Shown here: positions 29,959 through 35,985 of the stretch, one piece after another
Position numbering within the stretch: the stretch's first letter is position 1
Layout of the letters: each line of letters begins with the position of its first letter
Virus record (IMG/VR): IMGVR_UViG_3300035704_000014
Span: 1 to 38,061 of that record
Length of the DNA: 38,061 bases
Strand: one strand, 5' to 3'
Source: a virus
Notes under the pieces: model-generated
The model's database searches: none
What the model saw: the letters and a program-made list of their open reading frames with translations, nothing else
Told to the model about the DNA's origin: nothing
Translations under genes and position numbers: made by a program

Positions 29959-30375
29959 TTAACCAGGGTAGTTCGTTCCCGCCCACCAGCCGGCGAAATT
30001 ACCCATGTCCGGGTTGTCGTCGGACTGGCTGCTGAAGTCCCGCAGGAACTCCGTGACCTGCCCTGCCGTGGGCCGGGCCATGCCCGCCAGGCCCAGCTCC
30101 AGGTGAGCGCGCGCCCGCTGGTGCGCGGGGAAGCCCCTGGCGTTGTGCGGCCACACGGCGGCCCGCCAGGCGCGGGCTTCCCGCATCGCGGTTTCGTAGC
30201 TGTCCGGTTCGGGGGCGTCCGCCTCATGCTGCCGGTGGCCGCGCTGGTGCGCGGGGCTGCGGTCCCGCTCGCTGACCACGAGTTCGATCGCGTTCTCCCC
30301 CGCTTCCAGCAGCAGGTACGGGTTCAGGTACCACTGGCGGACGATGCGGCCCTGCCGGGTCAGCGGCTCTGTCAT
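29959..30375 (-). CDS. Accessory protein, unknown (last gene of long operon)
   Basis: 138 aa, ATG at 30375, four-base overlap with the stop of the preceding gene. N-terminus TEPLTRQGRIVRQWYLNPYL; a His/Arg-rich middle (RSPAHQRGHRQHEAD); helical HLELGLAGMARPTAGQVTEFL; ends FAGWWAGTNYPG. No known family. An upstream-extended frame (from 30444) lacks a ribosome site. It ends just before the 15-bp terminator. Confidence 0.6.
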   Translation of the reverse strand: MTEPLTRQGRIVRQWYLNPYLLLEAGENAIELVVSERDRSPAHQRGHRQHEADAPEPDSYETAMREARAWRAAVWPHNARGFPAHQRARAHLELGLAGMARPTAGQVTEFLRDFSSQSDDNPDMGNFAGWWAGTNYPG

Positions 30376-30734
30376 GATGCCGGTGCCATTGGGGTGAGCG
30401 TCAGCCCGGCTGCGCTGATCTGGGCAAGCGGGGCGACACGCCACTTATCGGTGATCGCCCGCAGCAGCTGGCCGTTCAGCGGGATGTACCCGTCGTCAGC
30501 CACCTTGATCCACCGGCACCCGGTGTCGTCGGTGAACACCGGCAGGCCGCTGGCCAGCTCACGTGTGGCACTGCCCGGGTCAGGCACCGACCCGTCTTCC
30601 CGGCGCGGGTAGACACCGGCGTACGGGATGGGGTGCTGGAAGTAGCCGTGCGCGTACTGGCCGCCGGGGTGGGAGTGGGTGAGCTTCTGGTCACCGGGGG
30701 TATCCATGTGCGTGTGCCGCAGCAGGTCGGTCAT
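30372..30734 (-). CDS. Accessory protein, unknown
   Basis: 120 aa, ATG at 30734, overlapping by 4 bases on both sides (ATGA). The N-terminal third has several His (THMDTPGDQKLTHSHPGGQY), then YPRREDGSVPDPGSATREL and WIKVADDGYIPLNGQLL; ends ISAAGLTLTPMAPAS. A His-rich start may bind metal. No catalytic motif. Confidence 0.6.
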   Translation of the reverse strand: MTDLLRHTHMDTPGDQKLTHSHPGGQYAHGYFQHPIPYAGVYPRREDGSVPDPGSATRELASGLPVFTDDTGCRWIKVADDGYIPLNGQLLRAITDKWRVAPLAQISAAGLTLTPMAPAS

Positions 30735-31066
30735 CGCGGTGTACTTCCGATCGTGTTGCGCAGCGCGTCATCGATGGACATCAGCTGTTCCGCGACCGCC
30801 AGCAGGGTGGTTGCGATCGCGGCGGCCTGGTAGTCGCTGGCGTCTCCCCCGCTGCCCCGCAGCCGGCTGATCATCCCTCGGGCGTTGTCCAGCGGTTCCG
30901 GCTCGGCCACCAGGATCAGGTGCGCGGCGGCCGGGCTGTCACTCGGAGACCAGCCGCCCAGCCTGAGCCGGTACACCTGGTTAAACTCCAGGTCTCCGGG
31001 GTTCAGGCCGGTGATCACGTACAGCGGCAGGTTAGAACGGGATGGCGTCATCGGTGTCTGGTCCAT
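30731..31066 (-). CDS. Accessory protein, unknown
   Basis: 111 aa from ATG at 31066 (GAGAGAGG leader about 12 bases upstream, long spacing); ATG at 31051 is an alternative. YVITGLNPGDLEFNQVYRLRL and HLILVAEPEPLDNARGMISRL suggest a small alpha/beta fold; the C-terminus is helical (YQAAAIATTLLAVAEQLMSI). It overlaps the neighbouring 31032 gene by 35 bases, which is more than usual in this operon and may indicate the shorter start. Confidence 0.55.
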   Translation of the reverse strand: MDQTPMTPSRSNLPLYVITGLNPGDLEFNQVYRLRLGGWSPSDSPAAAHLILVAEPEPLDNARGMISRLRGSGGDASDYQAAAIATTLLAVAEQLMSIDDALRNTIGSTPR

Positions 31067-31349
31067 CTGGGATGGTTTCCTCTCTCGGGTAGAACTGCTG
31101 ACCGCGCTTGTTCGGCACGGCGTACACCTTGCCGTCTTTGATCAGCTCTTTCATCAGGGCCAGGATGCCGGTCATGGGGAAGCAGCTGTGGCGCAGCTCC
31201 CCCGGTGCGACCGGCTCCGGCTCGAAGTACAGGCTCACCCCGTACGCGGTGAGCCCCGGGTTGCCGGTGATCACGTCCAGTGCCTTGGCCAGGTTGCCGG
31301 CCCACTCCCCCTTGCTGGGCATAATGCGGACTGTCAGGTCGCCGTTCAC
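31032..31349 (-). CDS. Small protein with a winged-helix-like C-terminus, unknown
   Basis: 105 aa, GTG at 31349 (GAGAGGGAGG leader), GTGA overlap with the preceding stop. Residues about 60-95 (GILALMKELIKDGKVYAVPN, KRGQQFYPRE) look like a winged-helix unit with a beta-wing. N-terminal MNGDLTVRIMPSKGEWAGNL. Nucleic-acid binding is possible. No hit can be claimed from sequence alone. Confidence 0.55.
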   Translation of the reverse strand: MNGDLTVRIMPSKGEWAGNLAKALDVITGNPGLTAYGVSLYFEPEPVAPGELRHSCFPMTGILALMKELIKDGKVYAVPNKRGQQFYPREETIPDGPDTDDAIPF

Positions 31350-31573
31350 CGGGTCGCCTCCCTCTCATGCTCACGCCAGCGGGCCATGGCCTCACCCTCA
31401 GCCCACCGCTGCCTGGCCTCGATCTGCTGGTGGCCGCGCTGGCAGGTGCAGCCCAGGATGATCGACTTGCGGCCCTTCGCCAGCCGCAGGACGATCTGAT
31501 GCGGTGCGTCGGGGTCCTCGATCAGCGGTTTGTACGGGAGCTGGCTCACCTGGTTGAGGGTCACGGCGTCCAC
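31346..31573 (-). CDS. Small CxC-containing protein, unknown
   Basis: 75 aa, GTG at 31573, GTGA overlap with the next gene. The middle has LAKGRKSIILGCTCQRGHQ (a CTC and nearby His), then a Gln/Arg/Glu-rich helix (QRWAEGEAMARWREHEREAT). It overlaps the end of the preceding gene by 13 bases. The short Cys motif may bind metal; it is not enough to assign a zinc finger. Confidence 0.55.
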   Translation of the reverse strand: MDAVTLNQVSQLPYKPLIEDPDAPHQIVLRLAKGRKSIILGCTCQRGHQQIEARQRWAEGEAMARWREHEREATR

Positions 31574-34683: not shown

Positions 34684-34974
34684 TCAGGTTGGGTCGCTGA
34701 TCTCGCTGACGCGGATCTGGAAGACGCGCTCGCGGGTGCCCTTGCCGTAGGTCTCGGTGACGCGCAGCAGCGTCACCAGGGCGCTGACTTCTTCGCACCG
34801 GACAGCGACAGCCCCAGCCGGTAGCTGCTCAGGTGCCAGGTGGCGCACCTTATCGGTCAGGTCGAACTGCACCGTCTCCGCTGCCCATCGTTTCGAGTCG
34901 TCCAGCATCTCGGGCTGGACCAGCTGGCCGCGCCTGCGACGGACACCCTGGCGGGCGTTAGCTGGCGGTGCCAT
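34684..34974 (-). CDS. Small basic protein, unknown
   Basis: 96 aa, ATG at 34974, GAGGAG about 8 bases upstream; the start overlaps the preceding gene by 17 bases. N-terminus ANARQGVRRRRGQLVQPEML is strongly basic; then VQFDLTDKVRHLAPEQL and a beta-rich AVAVRCEEVSALVTLLRVTE ending RVFQIRVSEIS. It may bind nucleic acid through the basic start; unproven. Confidence 0.6.
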   Translation of the reverse strand: MAPPANARQGVRRRRGQLVQPEMLDDSKRWAAETVQFDLTDKVRHLAPEQLPAGAVAVRCEEVSALVTLLRVTETYGKGTRERVFQIRVSEISDPT

Positions 34975-35242
34975 CGTGTGTCTCCTCGGGGTGCTCGGGC
35001 TCGGGCTCGTCGTCGTCGGGCGCGGCGTGCTTGCAGGCGTACTCGTCGCGGACCTTTTCGGTGCCCTCGAAGTAGGCGAACTGCTCGTTGTGCGGTACGT
35101 GGTCGAGTTCGGATTGCCACTCGATCCGGGCGGCGTCCAGGTCGCGCTCCAGCTGGCGTACCCGCCGGTAGCCGTCGACGGCTTTGCGGGTGGCATTGCT
35201 GACAACGGGCTCGGCGGGCTCGGCTGCGGTCTCGTCGGTCAT
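34958..35242 (-). CDS. Small acidic coiled protein, unknown
   Basis: 94 aa, ATG at 35242, GAGAGG leader. A long helix with heptad character (GYRRVRQLERDLDAARIEW) follows the acidic N-terminus; the C-terminus is a run of acidic residues (DDDEPEPEHPEETHD). The compact GTEKVRDEYACKH includes one Cys. It is translated with its overlapping neighbour. Function unknown. Confidence 0.6.
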   Translation of the reverse strand: MTDETAAEPAEPVVSNATRKAVDGYRRVRQLERDLDAARIEWQSELDHVPHNEQFAYFEGTEKVRDEYACKHAAPDDDEPEPEHPEETHDGTAS

Positions 35243-35257
35243 CGGCGGTCCTCTCGG

Positions 35258-35677
35258 TTACAGCTGCCGCAGGGTGCGGCGGTAGTCCGCCACGATGGCG
35301 TCTACAGTCTCTGGGGTGGTGCCGTACTCGACCGCTGTCCTGGCGCTGCTGTGCCCGTGCATGAGCACGCTCTCGGCTACGGCTACCAGCAGCTCGGGCC
35401 GCCAGGTCCGCCACGGCTCCACCAGGGCGGCGACGGCGCGCAGCGGGAGGCGGCGCATCCAGTCGTAGCTTTTGTCCGCGCTGTACCCGGTGCCCTGCCC
35501 GGCGCAGGCGTCGTCCACTGCGTCGAGCATCCGGTCGGTGCTCGGGTTGGTACCGCGCCCGGGTAGCTGGCGGGCGGCTGCGGTGGCCTTGGCGCGGCGC
35601 ACCTGGTCGAGTGTGGGGGGTGCGTCGATGTCGTAGTGGCGGGTGATGTCTCCGCGCCCGCTGCGCCGGCCGCTCAT
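35258..35677 (-). CDS. Putative helix-turn-helix protein
   Basis: 139 aa, ATG at 35677 overlapping the preceding stop. N-terminus SGRRSGRGDITRHYDIDAPP is basic; a middle helical region has QVRRAKATAAARQL and MRRLPLRAVAALVEPW; the end, SARTAVEYGTTPETVDAIVA then DYRRTLRQL, fits a helix-turn-helix. It may regulate the long operon, given its position near the 5' end. No operator has been shown; CACGTG-like sites nearby are candidates. Confidence 0.5.
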   Translation of the reverse strand: MSGRRSGRGDITRHYDIDAPPTLDQVRRAKATAAARQLPGRGTNPSTDRMLDAVDDACAGQGTGYSADKSYDWMRRLPLRAVAALVEPWRTWRPELLVAVAESVLMHGHSSARTAVEYGTTPETVDAIVADYRRTLRQL

Positions 35678-35985
35678 CAGGCACCGTCAACGTGTAGCGC
35701 GCCGTCGCCGTCAATGACGGCTTCGTAGGCGTCTAGCCCGGTCCCGGCTAGGTCTCGCTGCAGCGGCACGGTCGTCTGCACGTACAGCTCAGCTCGCACG
35801 TCGGCGTCAGTCACGACGTACACGATGCCCTGGGGGCGGCCGTCTCCGTGCAGTTCCTTGGTCGCGGCCAGCAGGTTGCGCAGGGCTGCGCTGGTGCGGG
35901 CGGCCGTCTGGGCGAGTCCCAGGTCCGGCCCGTTTAGCAGGGTCTCCGCGTCCGCGATTGCGCGGCGCAGGTTAATGGCGTCCAT
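35677..35985 (-). CDS. Small protein at the 5' end of the long operon, unknown
   Basis: 102 aa, ATG at 35985 with GAGAGAGGGACAAC leader, stop overlapping the next start (TGATG). N-terminal helix INLRRAIADAETLLNGPD, helix LAQTAARTSAALRNLLAATK, then a beta-rich end GIVYVVTDADVRAELYV. The alternative ATG at 36015 has no ribosome site and would run through the promoter. It is the first gene of the 15-gene unit. Confidence 0.65.
   Translation of the reverse strand: MDAINLRRAIADAETLLNGPDLGLAQTAARTSAALRNLLAATKELHGDGRPQGIVYVVTDADVRAELYVQTTVPLQRDLAGTGLDAYEAVIDGDGALHVDGA

Follow-up and report, generated by a model that had tools for sequence, protein, structure and literature searches.

Operons of small genes lacking an assigned function are common in phages, and they are seldom characterized past the label “unknown.” Described systems that resemble parts of such a locus include the stoperators of cluster A mycobacteriophages, which are repressor-binding sites repeated across phage genomes, and YraN, a widespread bacterial protein whose role is unclear. 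The YraN family is described as carrying an ID-EVK nuclease motif (PMC1189080), and SpdB2 of the plasmid pSVH1 as an oligomeric membrane protein that binds DNA (PMC4170104). Here we examine a 38,061-base virus record of IMG/VR (IMGVR_UViG_3300035704_000014; “the window” denotes this whole stretch), in which fifteen genes, g1 to g15, run along the minus strand at 29959-35985. That these genes form an operon is well supported; that they make up a clade-specific accessory operon with which a siphophage interacts with or takes over its host is our best guess as to function, and we hold it as possible rather than probable. Comparison with two sister phages yields testable handles on the locus: the operon borders, an operator sequence, a conserved core of genes (g2, g3, g4, g6, g7, a g9-type gene, g11 and g14) and a nuclease fold whose active site is missing from all five copies.

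The plus strand of the window carries terminase, portal, capsid, tape measure, tail and lysis genes (portal and capsid named by similarity, the remainder being putative assignments by position), and the block lies on the opposite strand, flanked by the lysis cassette on one side and by a small conserved gene (the u3 family) on the other. The sisters are the IMG/VR records IMGVR_UViG_3300036780_000414 (G001; 82,795 bases) and IMGVR_UViG_3300036900_000129 (G002; 57,729 bases), and capsid identity among the three phages is 82-91%. G001 starts within the terminase gene, where it matches the window terminase at 82-83%, and is read as ending soon after a putative small terminase subunit assigned by position; the full siphophage genome would thus measure about 85 kb, with the window representing under half of it.

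A preliminary description of this DNA, made from its letters and open reading frames, had proposed a fifteen-gene minus-strand operon, and fifteen minus-strand open reading frames were indeed found. Its statement that most junctions are ATGA or GTGA overlaps needs correction, since such overlaps of 4 base pairs (bp) account for only 7 of the 14 (taking the g11 start as 31564); overlap of some kind nevertheless occurs at 11, the others comprising one TGATG and three longer overlaps (17, 32, and 35 bp), and the last three junctions are gaps of 15, 13, and 46 bp. A GAGAGG-type ribosome site precedes several genes whose start is off the preceding stop. Coding support extends beyond the open reading frame calls: one or both sister phages encode a homologue of 13 of the 15 products, and in nearly all window/sister gene pairs variation is greatest at codon position 3. 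The 15-bp terminator proposed at 29906 is present after the last gene as a minus-strand hairpin (29906-29946) with a perfect stem (29946-29932/29920-29906) and an 11-nucleotide loop, its computed RNA fold reaching -35.7 kcal/mol (z -6.7); a simple terminator scanner omits it because its T tail is weak. Hairpins of different sequence occupy the matching place in both sisters (z -5.4 and -2.8). At the other end, a promoter-like element does lie at 36006, where the upstream border had been drawn, but the unit appears to extend further, through the gene u1 (36036-36320, minus strand; 94 amino acids [aa], 70% identical in G002 and not found in G001). We count u1 as the first gene of the unit because it lies on the same strand 50 bp upstream of g1 with no terminator seen between them, and because the operator P1 stands upstream of it, which leaves the element at 36006 as a second promoter-like element, P2. 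Read in this way, the block would be one minus-strand unit running from P1 and P2 to the hairpin at 29906, with borders common to three phages, and both parts of this reading are well supported by sequence.

The putative promoter/operator P1 (36325-36353, minus strand) reads CTACTGCACACATGTGTGCGGTACACTTA from 36353 to 36325. It has the partly palindromic form CTACTGCACACA/TGTGTGCGGTACACTTA with a -10 element TACACT, 10 of its 12 dyad pairs are matched, the same motif is strong in the two sisters, and the u1 start that follows is nearly leaderless. P2 (36006-36022, minus strand) joins a CACGTG box to a TACTGT -10 about 20 bp upstream of g1, and has counterparts just before g2 in G001 (35996) and G002 (41161), so that a weaker CACGTG/AACGTG variant of the operator motif stands before g1 in the window and before g2 in both sisters. 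Judged by sequence, P1 is the stronger promoter of the two. A matrix built from eight operator sites, which it recovers by construction, also located sites outside the seed and hence independent of it, at 47140, 31311, 42291, and 65771 in G001 and at 47959 and 57466 in G002. In the transcribed orientation (reverse readings of the palindrome excluded), a score above 10 is reached by 10 sites in G001, 4 in G002 and 1 in the window, and G002 also has a lower-scoring P2-type site. Resampled sequence (first-order Markov, five per genome) gave 0 to 0.6 matches above 6 per genome, and the longer relatives G003, G004, G005, G006, and G008 had no site above that score; exact matches to a 21-letter form of the operator occurred within IMG/VR only in G001 and G002. 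Across 14 sites the dyad averages 8.5 of 12 pairs, versus 5.5 at random positions given the fixed core. Of the operator sites in G001 and G002, 15 were tested: all but one have a gene start on their own strand 22-96 bp downstream, and all but one fall outside genes, although 88-93% of the DNA of these two phages is coding; the exceptions are a “plus” site at 57466 in G002, which has no called downstream gene, and that at 47140 in G001, which falls inside the end of the upstream gene. The motif precedes other, mostly minus-strand, operons of these phages, and a predicted operator common to the block and to other operons of the clade is accordingly well supported. In each of the three phages another promoter-like element, CACGTGTAnGATG, stands before d1, the gene that follows the terminator (window ~29855-29872, minus strand; G001 26396; G002 near 33815).

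Lack of conservation as a block had been named as grounds for refutation; the block proved to be conserved in both of the two further long records of the clade, together with the shared operator, and this supports a functional, co-regulated unit. In both sisters it is bordered by the lysis genes on one side and by a single flanking gene family on the other. Homologues of all core genes occur in both sisters (for g4, as set by alignment of position-matched genes); those of g5, g10, g12, and g15 occur in G001 and those of g8 and u1 in G002, g1 and g13 have a homologue in neither, and gene order is kept except that g10 is placed before g7 in G001. Block proteins of the window are 27-70% identical to those of the sisters, a divergence faster than that of the capsid that fits the expectation for host-interaction genes. 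A plus-strand gene at 36487-37242, divergent from u1 and sharing its upstream region, encodes a protein whose start resembles a signal peptide and which weakly matches ricin-B lectin; standing alone between the block and u3, the gene is conserved at ~50% in both sisters.

The same comparison bears on a different explanation, namely that the block is a loose accessory array whose genes, though under one promoter and at one position, serve separate, mostly dispensable roles, such that synteny reflects common descent and not joint function. The turnover of seven genes among the three phages (g1, g13, g5, g8, g10, g12, and g15) speaks for it, as do several extra genes in or adjoining the block in G001 and G002, some of them common to both (255/312 aa, 86 aa, and 146/181 aa). 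Relatives outside the sisters point the same way. A capsid scan of IMG/VR returned 43 loci, and profiles of 23 families were run against the 41 records or pieces other than G001 and G002 (627,302 bases); most of these are short structural fragments and uninformative, and among the fifteen block genes and u1 only g4 was found, in G005. Absence is counted from G004 and G005, the relatives shown to span the post-lysis site, and not from G003, G006, or G008. By profile search G004 lacks the block there, and G005 holds other genes plus g4. Both retain a u3-like gene at the site, and G004 an NlpC-like gene as well, the distance between these two neighbors being ~1.4 kb in G004, ~13 kb in G001 and ~11 kb in G002. 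Against a loose array stand the core genes, largely co-linear at 27-59% identity, and the retention of the terminator position and of a P2-type element. On balance we consider a loose array somewhat unlikely, yet the varying gene content and the displacement of g10 do mean that the fifteen genes need not form one machine.

Beyond the clade the block is elusive. A near-DNA search of window positions 15000-38061 against 50,697 phage records gave nothing for the block, and tblastn with g2, u1, g15, and g6 gave no matches in phage records. Single proteins or two-row alignments, when scanned against IMG/VR, returned G001 alone or nothing, and G002 was recovered through the capsid scan and a three-row g6 alignment; as the case of G002 illustrates, pattern scans overlook relatives, and the clade may therefore be larger.

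Three of the products offer some purchase on function. The preliminary description had noted two weak family likenesses and one or two helix-turn-helix (HTH)-like ends; the two families in fact exceed their Pfam thresholds, while the HTH is indeed weak. The first, g9 (31773-32246, minus strand; 157 aa), matches UPF0102 (PF02021) at 49.2 bits against a cut-off of 23.6 (E 7e-13) and the NCBIfam YraN model NF009154 at 78.3 bits (E 5e-22), below the equivalog cut-off of 109. Its AlphaFold2 model (mean predicted local distance difference test score [pLDDT] 74.9) matches 3fov with a Foldseek E of 1.5e-6 and a VIA-align Z of 14.9 (root-mean-square deviation 2.1 over 97 residues), followed by Holliday junction resolvases at Z 8.4-8.9, and the predicted structure thus has the PD-(D/E)XK fold of the 3fov type. 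Sequence family, fold and a conserved C-terminal strand pair are shared with YraN. The ID-EVK motif, in contrast, is incomplete in all five phage copies (IG-DVR in the window, then LP-DLR, LS-YLK, LD-MIR, and LS-YLR), the first D surviving in one, the E as D in two and the K in one; the GE of the first helix is also lost from g9, and the motif is intact in both actinobacterial homologues compared (Nonomuraea and Nocardia). We therefore do not class g9 as an active YraN nuclease, and its description as a predicted YraN fold without the catalytic set is well supported. It departs from YraN proper in two further ways: the g9 of the window and that of G001 have an additional N-terminal part bearing a CxxC...HxxxH pattern, and in both sisters the gene is duplicated. 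The N-terminal part is modeled with pLDDT near or below 50, and its pattern, which might mark a zinc finger, is absent from the paralogues. Different paralogues are 31-33% identical. Each sister carries its two YraN-like genes close together (14760-15794 of piece L056 of G002; 8802-10100 of piece L005 of G001), the longer with its own N-terminal part, and those of G001 each lie beside a small gene of 60-69 aa, which suggests duplication of a two-gene unit. The only matches to g9 in phage records were four unannotated “Bacteriophage sp.” entries from human feces (32-35%), g9 had no PHROG match, and the accessible part of the literature on YraN/UPF0102 with phages or nucleases contained no description of a phage YraN.

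Proteins of the YraN/Holliday-resolvase fold, like those with an HTH, typically act in DNA metabolism, which raises the alternative that the block serves phage DNA replication or recombination and not host interaction. We regard this as very unlikely, given that the nuclease motif is lost in every YraN-like copy, that a DnaB-type helicase is encoded elsewhere in G001 (plus strand, 61.7 kb), and that G004, with the same layout, lacks the block. A more specific scenario, unlikely though it is, would have the clade take up a host-type YraN gene, lose its nuclease residues and duplicate it in two sisters; the dead copies, delivered with the DUF2637 protein g6 from an operator-controlled operon, would then bind to branched DNA or to the partners of host YraN, thereby blocking DNA processing in the host during infection. 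If a phage protein does imitate YraN without cutting, it could help to show what part YraN plays in the host.

The second, g6 (33152-34267, minus strand; 371 aa), matches DUF2637 (PF10935) at 41.6 bits against a cut-off of 22.8 (E 1.6e-10; 24.7 bits for the G002 copy) and the phage family phrog_10376 (E 1.5e-8). Its membrane core, in which three hydrophobic segments exceed the threshold in the copies of the window and G001, and overlapping ones in that of G002, is shared with phrog_10376 and with DUF2637 proteins of actinobacterial plasmids, those of Streptomyces and Planobispora being 29-36% identical over the core. Unlike the plasmid proteins, g6 belongs to a phage operon with no identified conjugation gene and has another C-terminal part, an extension that is kept in the sisters; the literature on DUF2637 yielded nothing relevant. 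One could envisage from these relatives a DNA-spreading or anchoring module like the Spd proteins of Streptomyces plasmids, in which g6 passes or tethers phage DNA at mycelial septa with g9 as its DNA-binding partner. DUF2637 proteins do occur on actinobacterial plasmids, two of the five matching records being typed conjugative, and the properties described for SpdB2 (PMC4170104) would suit such a role. But SpdB of pIJ101, the sole Spd protein compared, has no DUF2637 match, the block contains no gene recognized as TraB-like or Spd79-like, and the module would need a mycelial host, which the host of this phage is not known to be; we think it quite unlikely. That SpdB2 is itself a DUF2637 protein is an assumption here and not a finding.

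The third, g2 (35258-35677, minus strand; 139 aa; 59% and 53% identical in the sisters), is a candidate regulator, all-helical with a C-terminal HTH that scores 19.4 bits against Pfam HTH_28 (threshold 25). Its model has six helices (pLDDT 74.3), of which the C-terminal HTH alone gives matches: the three-helix unit superposes on KorA/ArdK-type plasmid repressors (5clv, 7bca) and on sigma region 4 with Z 6.6 to 7.7 over 48-60 residues, a generic likeness of fold with no sequence match. The viral fold library held no match to g2 at E below 0.08.

For the block as a whole, the preliminary description had suggested a functional system for host takeover, defense or immunity. A conserved, co-regulated unit stands; the named functions found no direct match, as none of the 16 proteins (the fifteen and u1) reached E below 0.01 in PADLOC (best E 0.045), and no toxin or known anti-defense family was seen among the block proteins in Pfam or PHROGs. 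Superinfection exclusion or a phage-carried anti-phage defense would suit a membrane protein among small proteins, an accessory position and fast divergence, but is improbable in light of the PADLOC result; moreover, no integrase or repressor was noticed among the listed gene calls of G001, for which no systematic search was made, and long-term lysogen immunity is not indicated.

We thus favor host interaction or takeover. The block would be transcribed early by host RNA polymerase, as strand and promoters suggest, under the control of a dimeric regulator that may be g2 itself. Its products would act by binding DNA or protein and not by catalysis, with g6 placed in the cytoplasmic membrane and g9 binding branched DNA, or competing with host YraN, but not cutting. 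Jointly they might alter the way the host handles DNA, or processes at its membrane, in the course of infection. Several observations weigh against this view. Early timing is read from strand and promoters, a sigma-70 promoter scanner found no site in the region, and P1 and P2 have no -35 consensus. The fold matches of g2 are both weak and unspecific (best Foldseek E 0.14; Z 7.7 at most), those of its HTH are tied among sigma-4, Myb, ArdK and KorA, and its link to the operator is one of co-occurrence only. No PADLOC, Pfam or PHROG match to any of the 16 proteins names a host-takeover function, and the gene turnover and the moved g10 described above count here as well.

For the remaining genes, all on the minus strand, neither Pfam nor PHROGs gave a usable match to any family. 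From the P2 side these are g1 (35677-35985; 102 aa), the acidic g3 (34958-35242; 94 aa), g4 (34684-34974; 96 aa; also in the more distant G005), g5 (34236-34670; 144 aa), g7 (32626-33105; 159 aa), g8 (32243-32629; 128 aa), the acidic g10 (31561-31776; 71 aa), g11 (31346-31564; 72 aa, or 75 aa from 31573), g12 (31032-31349; 105 aa), g13 (30731-31066; 111 aa), g14 (30372-30734; 120 aa) and g15 (29959-30375; 138 aa; 51% identical in G001). Pfam matches to DO-GTPase2, DUF6212, DUF7518, Zn_ribbon_4, NtrZ, ECM1, Flav_NS3-hel_C, DUF5817, and DUF6349 fell below the cut-off and were set aside, and searches of solved-structure sequences with alignments of g6, g2, g15, and g7 returned nothing meaningful.

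The clade probably infects actinobacteria in soil. An actinobacterial host is suggested by the DUF2637 plasmid matches, by a Nonomuraea YraN as the top match of g9, and by capsid and portal relatives among Gordonia, Mycobacterium and Arthrobacter phages; genome scans with g2 and with the capsid found no confirmed relative.

Other features of these genomes merit brief mention. G001 carries Pfam matches to QueC, PTPS (QueD-type), a radical SAM protein and GTP cyclohydrolase I (11816-14546 of piece L007, which spans 60001-80000), preceded by two tandem TGT/DpdA-looking genes, and probably has 7-deazaguanine DNA modification; the one TGT/DpdA-like protein scanned had no Pfam match, and a similar-looking gene run occurs in G004. 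In G003 (IMGVR_UViG_2870517152_000001), which looks like an isolate record, the terminase large subunit matches that of the window in two pieces ~800 bp apart (~40067-40872), and an intron, an intein or a frame break is possible. Upstream of the terminase in the window lies a 778-aa glycine-rich repeat protein (1083-3419, plus strand; GGGLS.GMGTG units), whose C-terminal end alone matches in G002 and for which no match was found in G001. An ARAGORN call of a selenocysteine transfer RNA at 11692-11782 (minus strand) is probably false; it lies opposite to and within the coding sequence 9814-11850.

Set against described systems, the operator resembles the stoperators of cluster A mycobacteriophages in being one partly palindromic site repeated genome-wide, and differs from them in that its sites lie at the promoters of separate operons, overlapping the -10. 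Phages are known to carry accessory operons of genes without an assigned function; what is new here is the combination of a clade-wide operator with repeated, nuclease-dead proteins of the YraN type.

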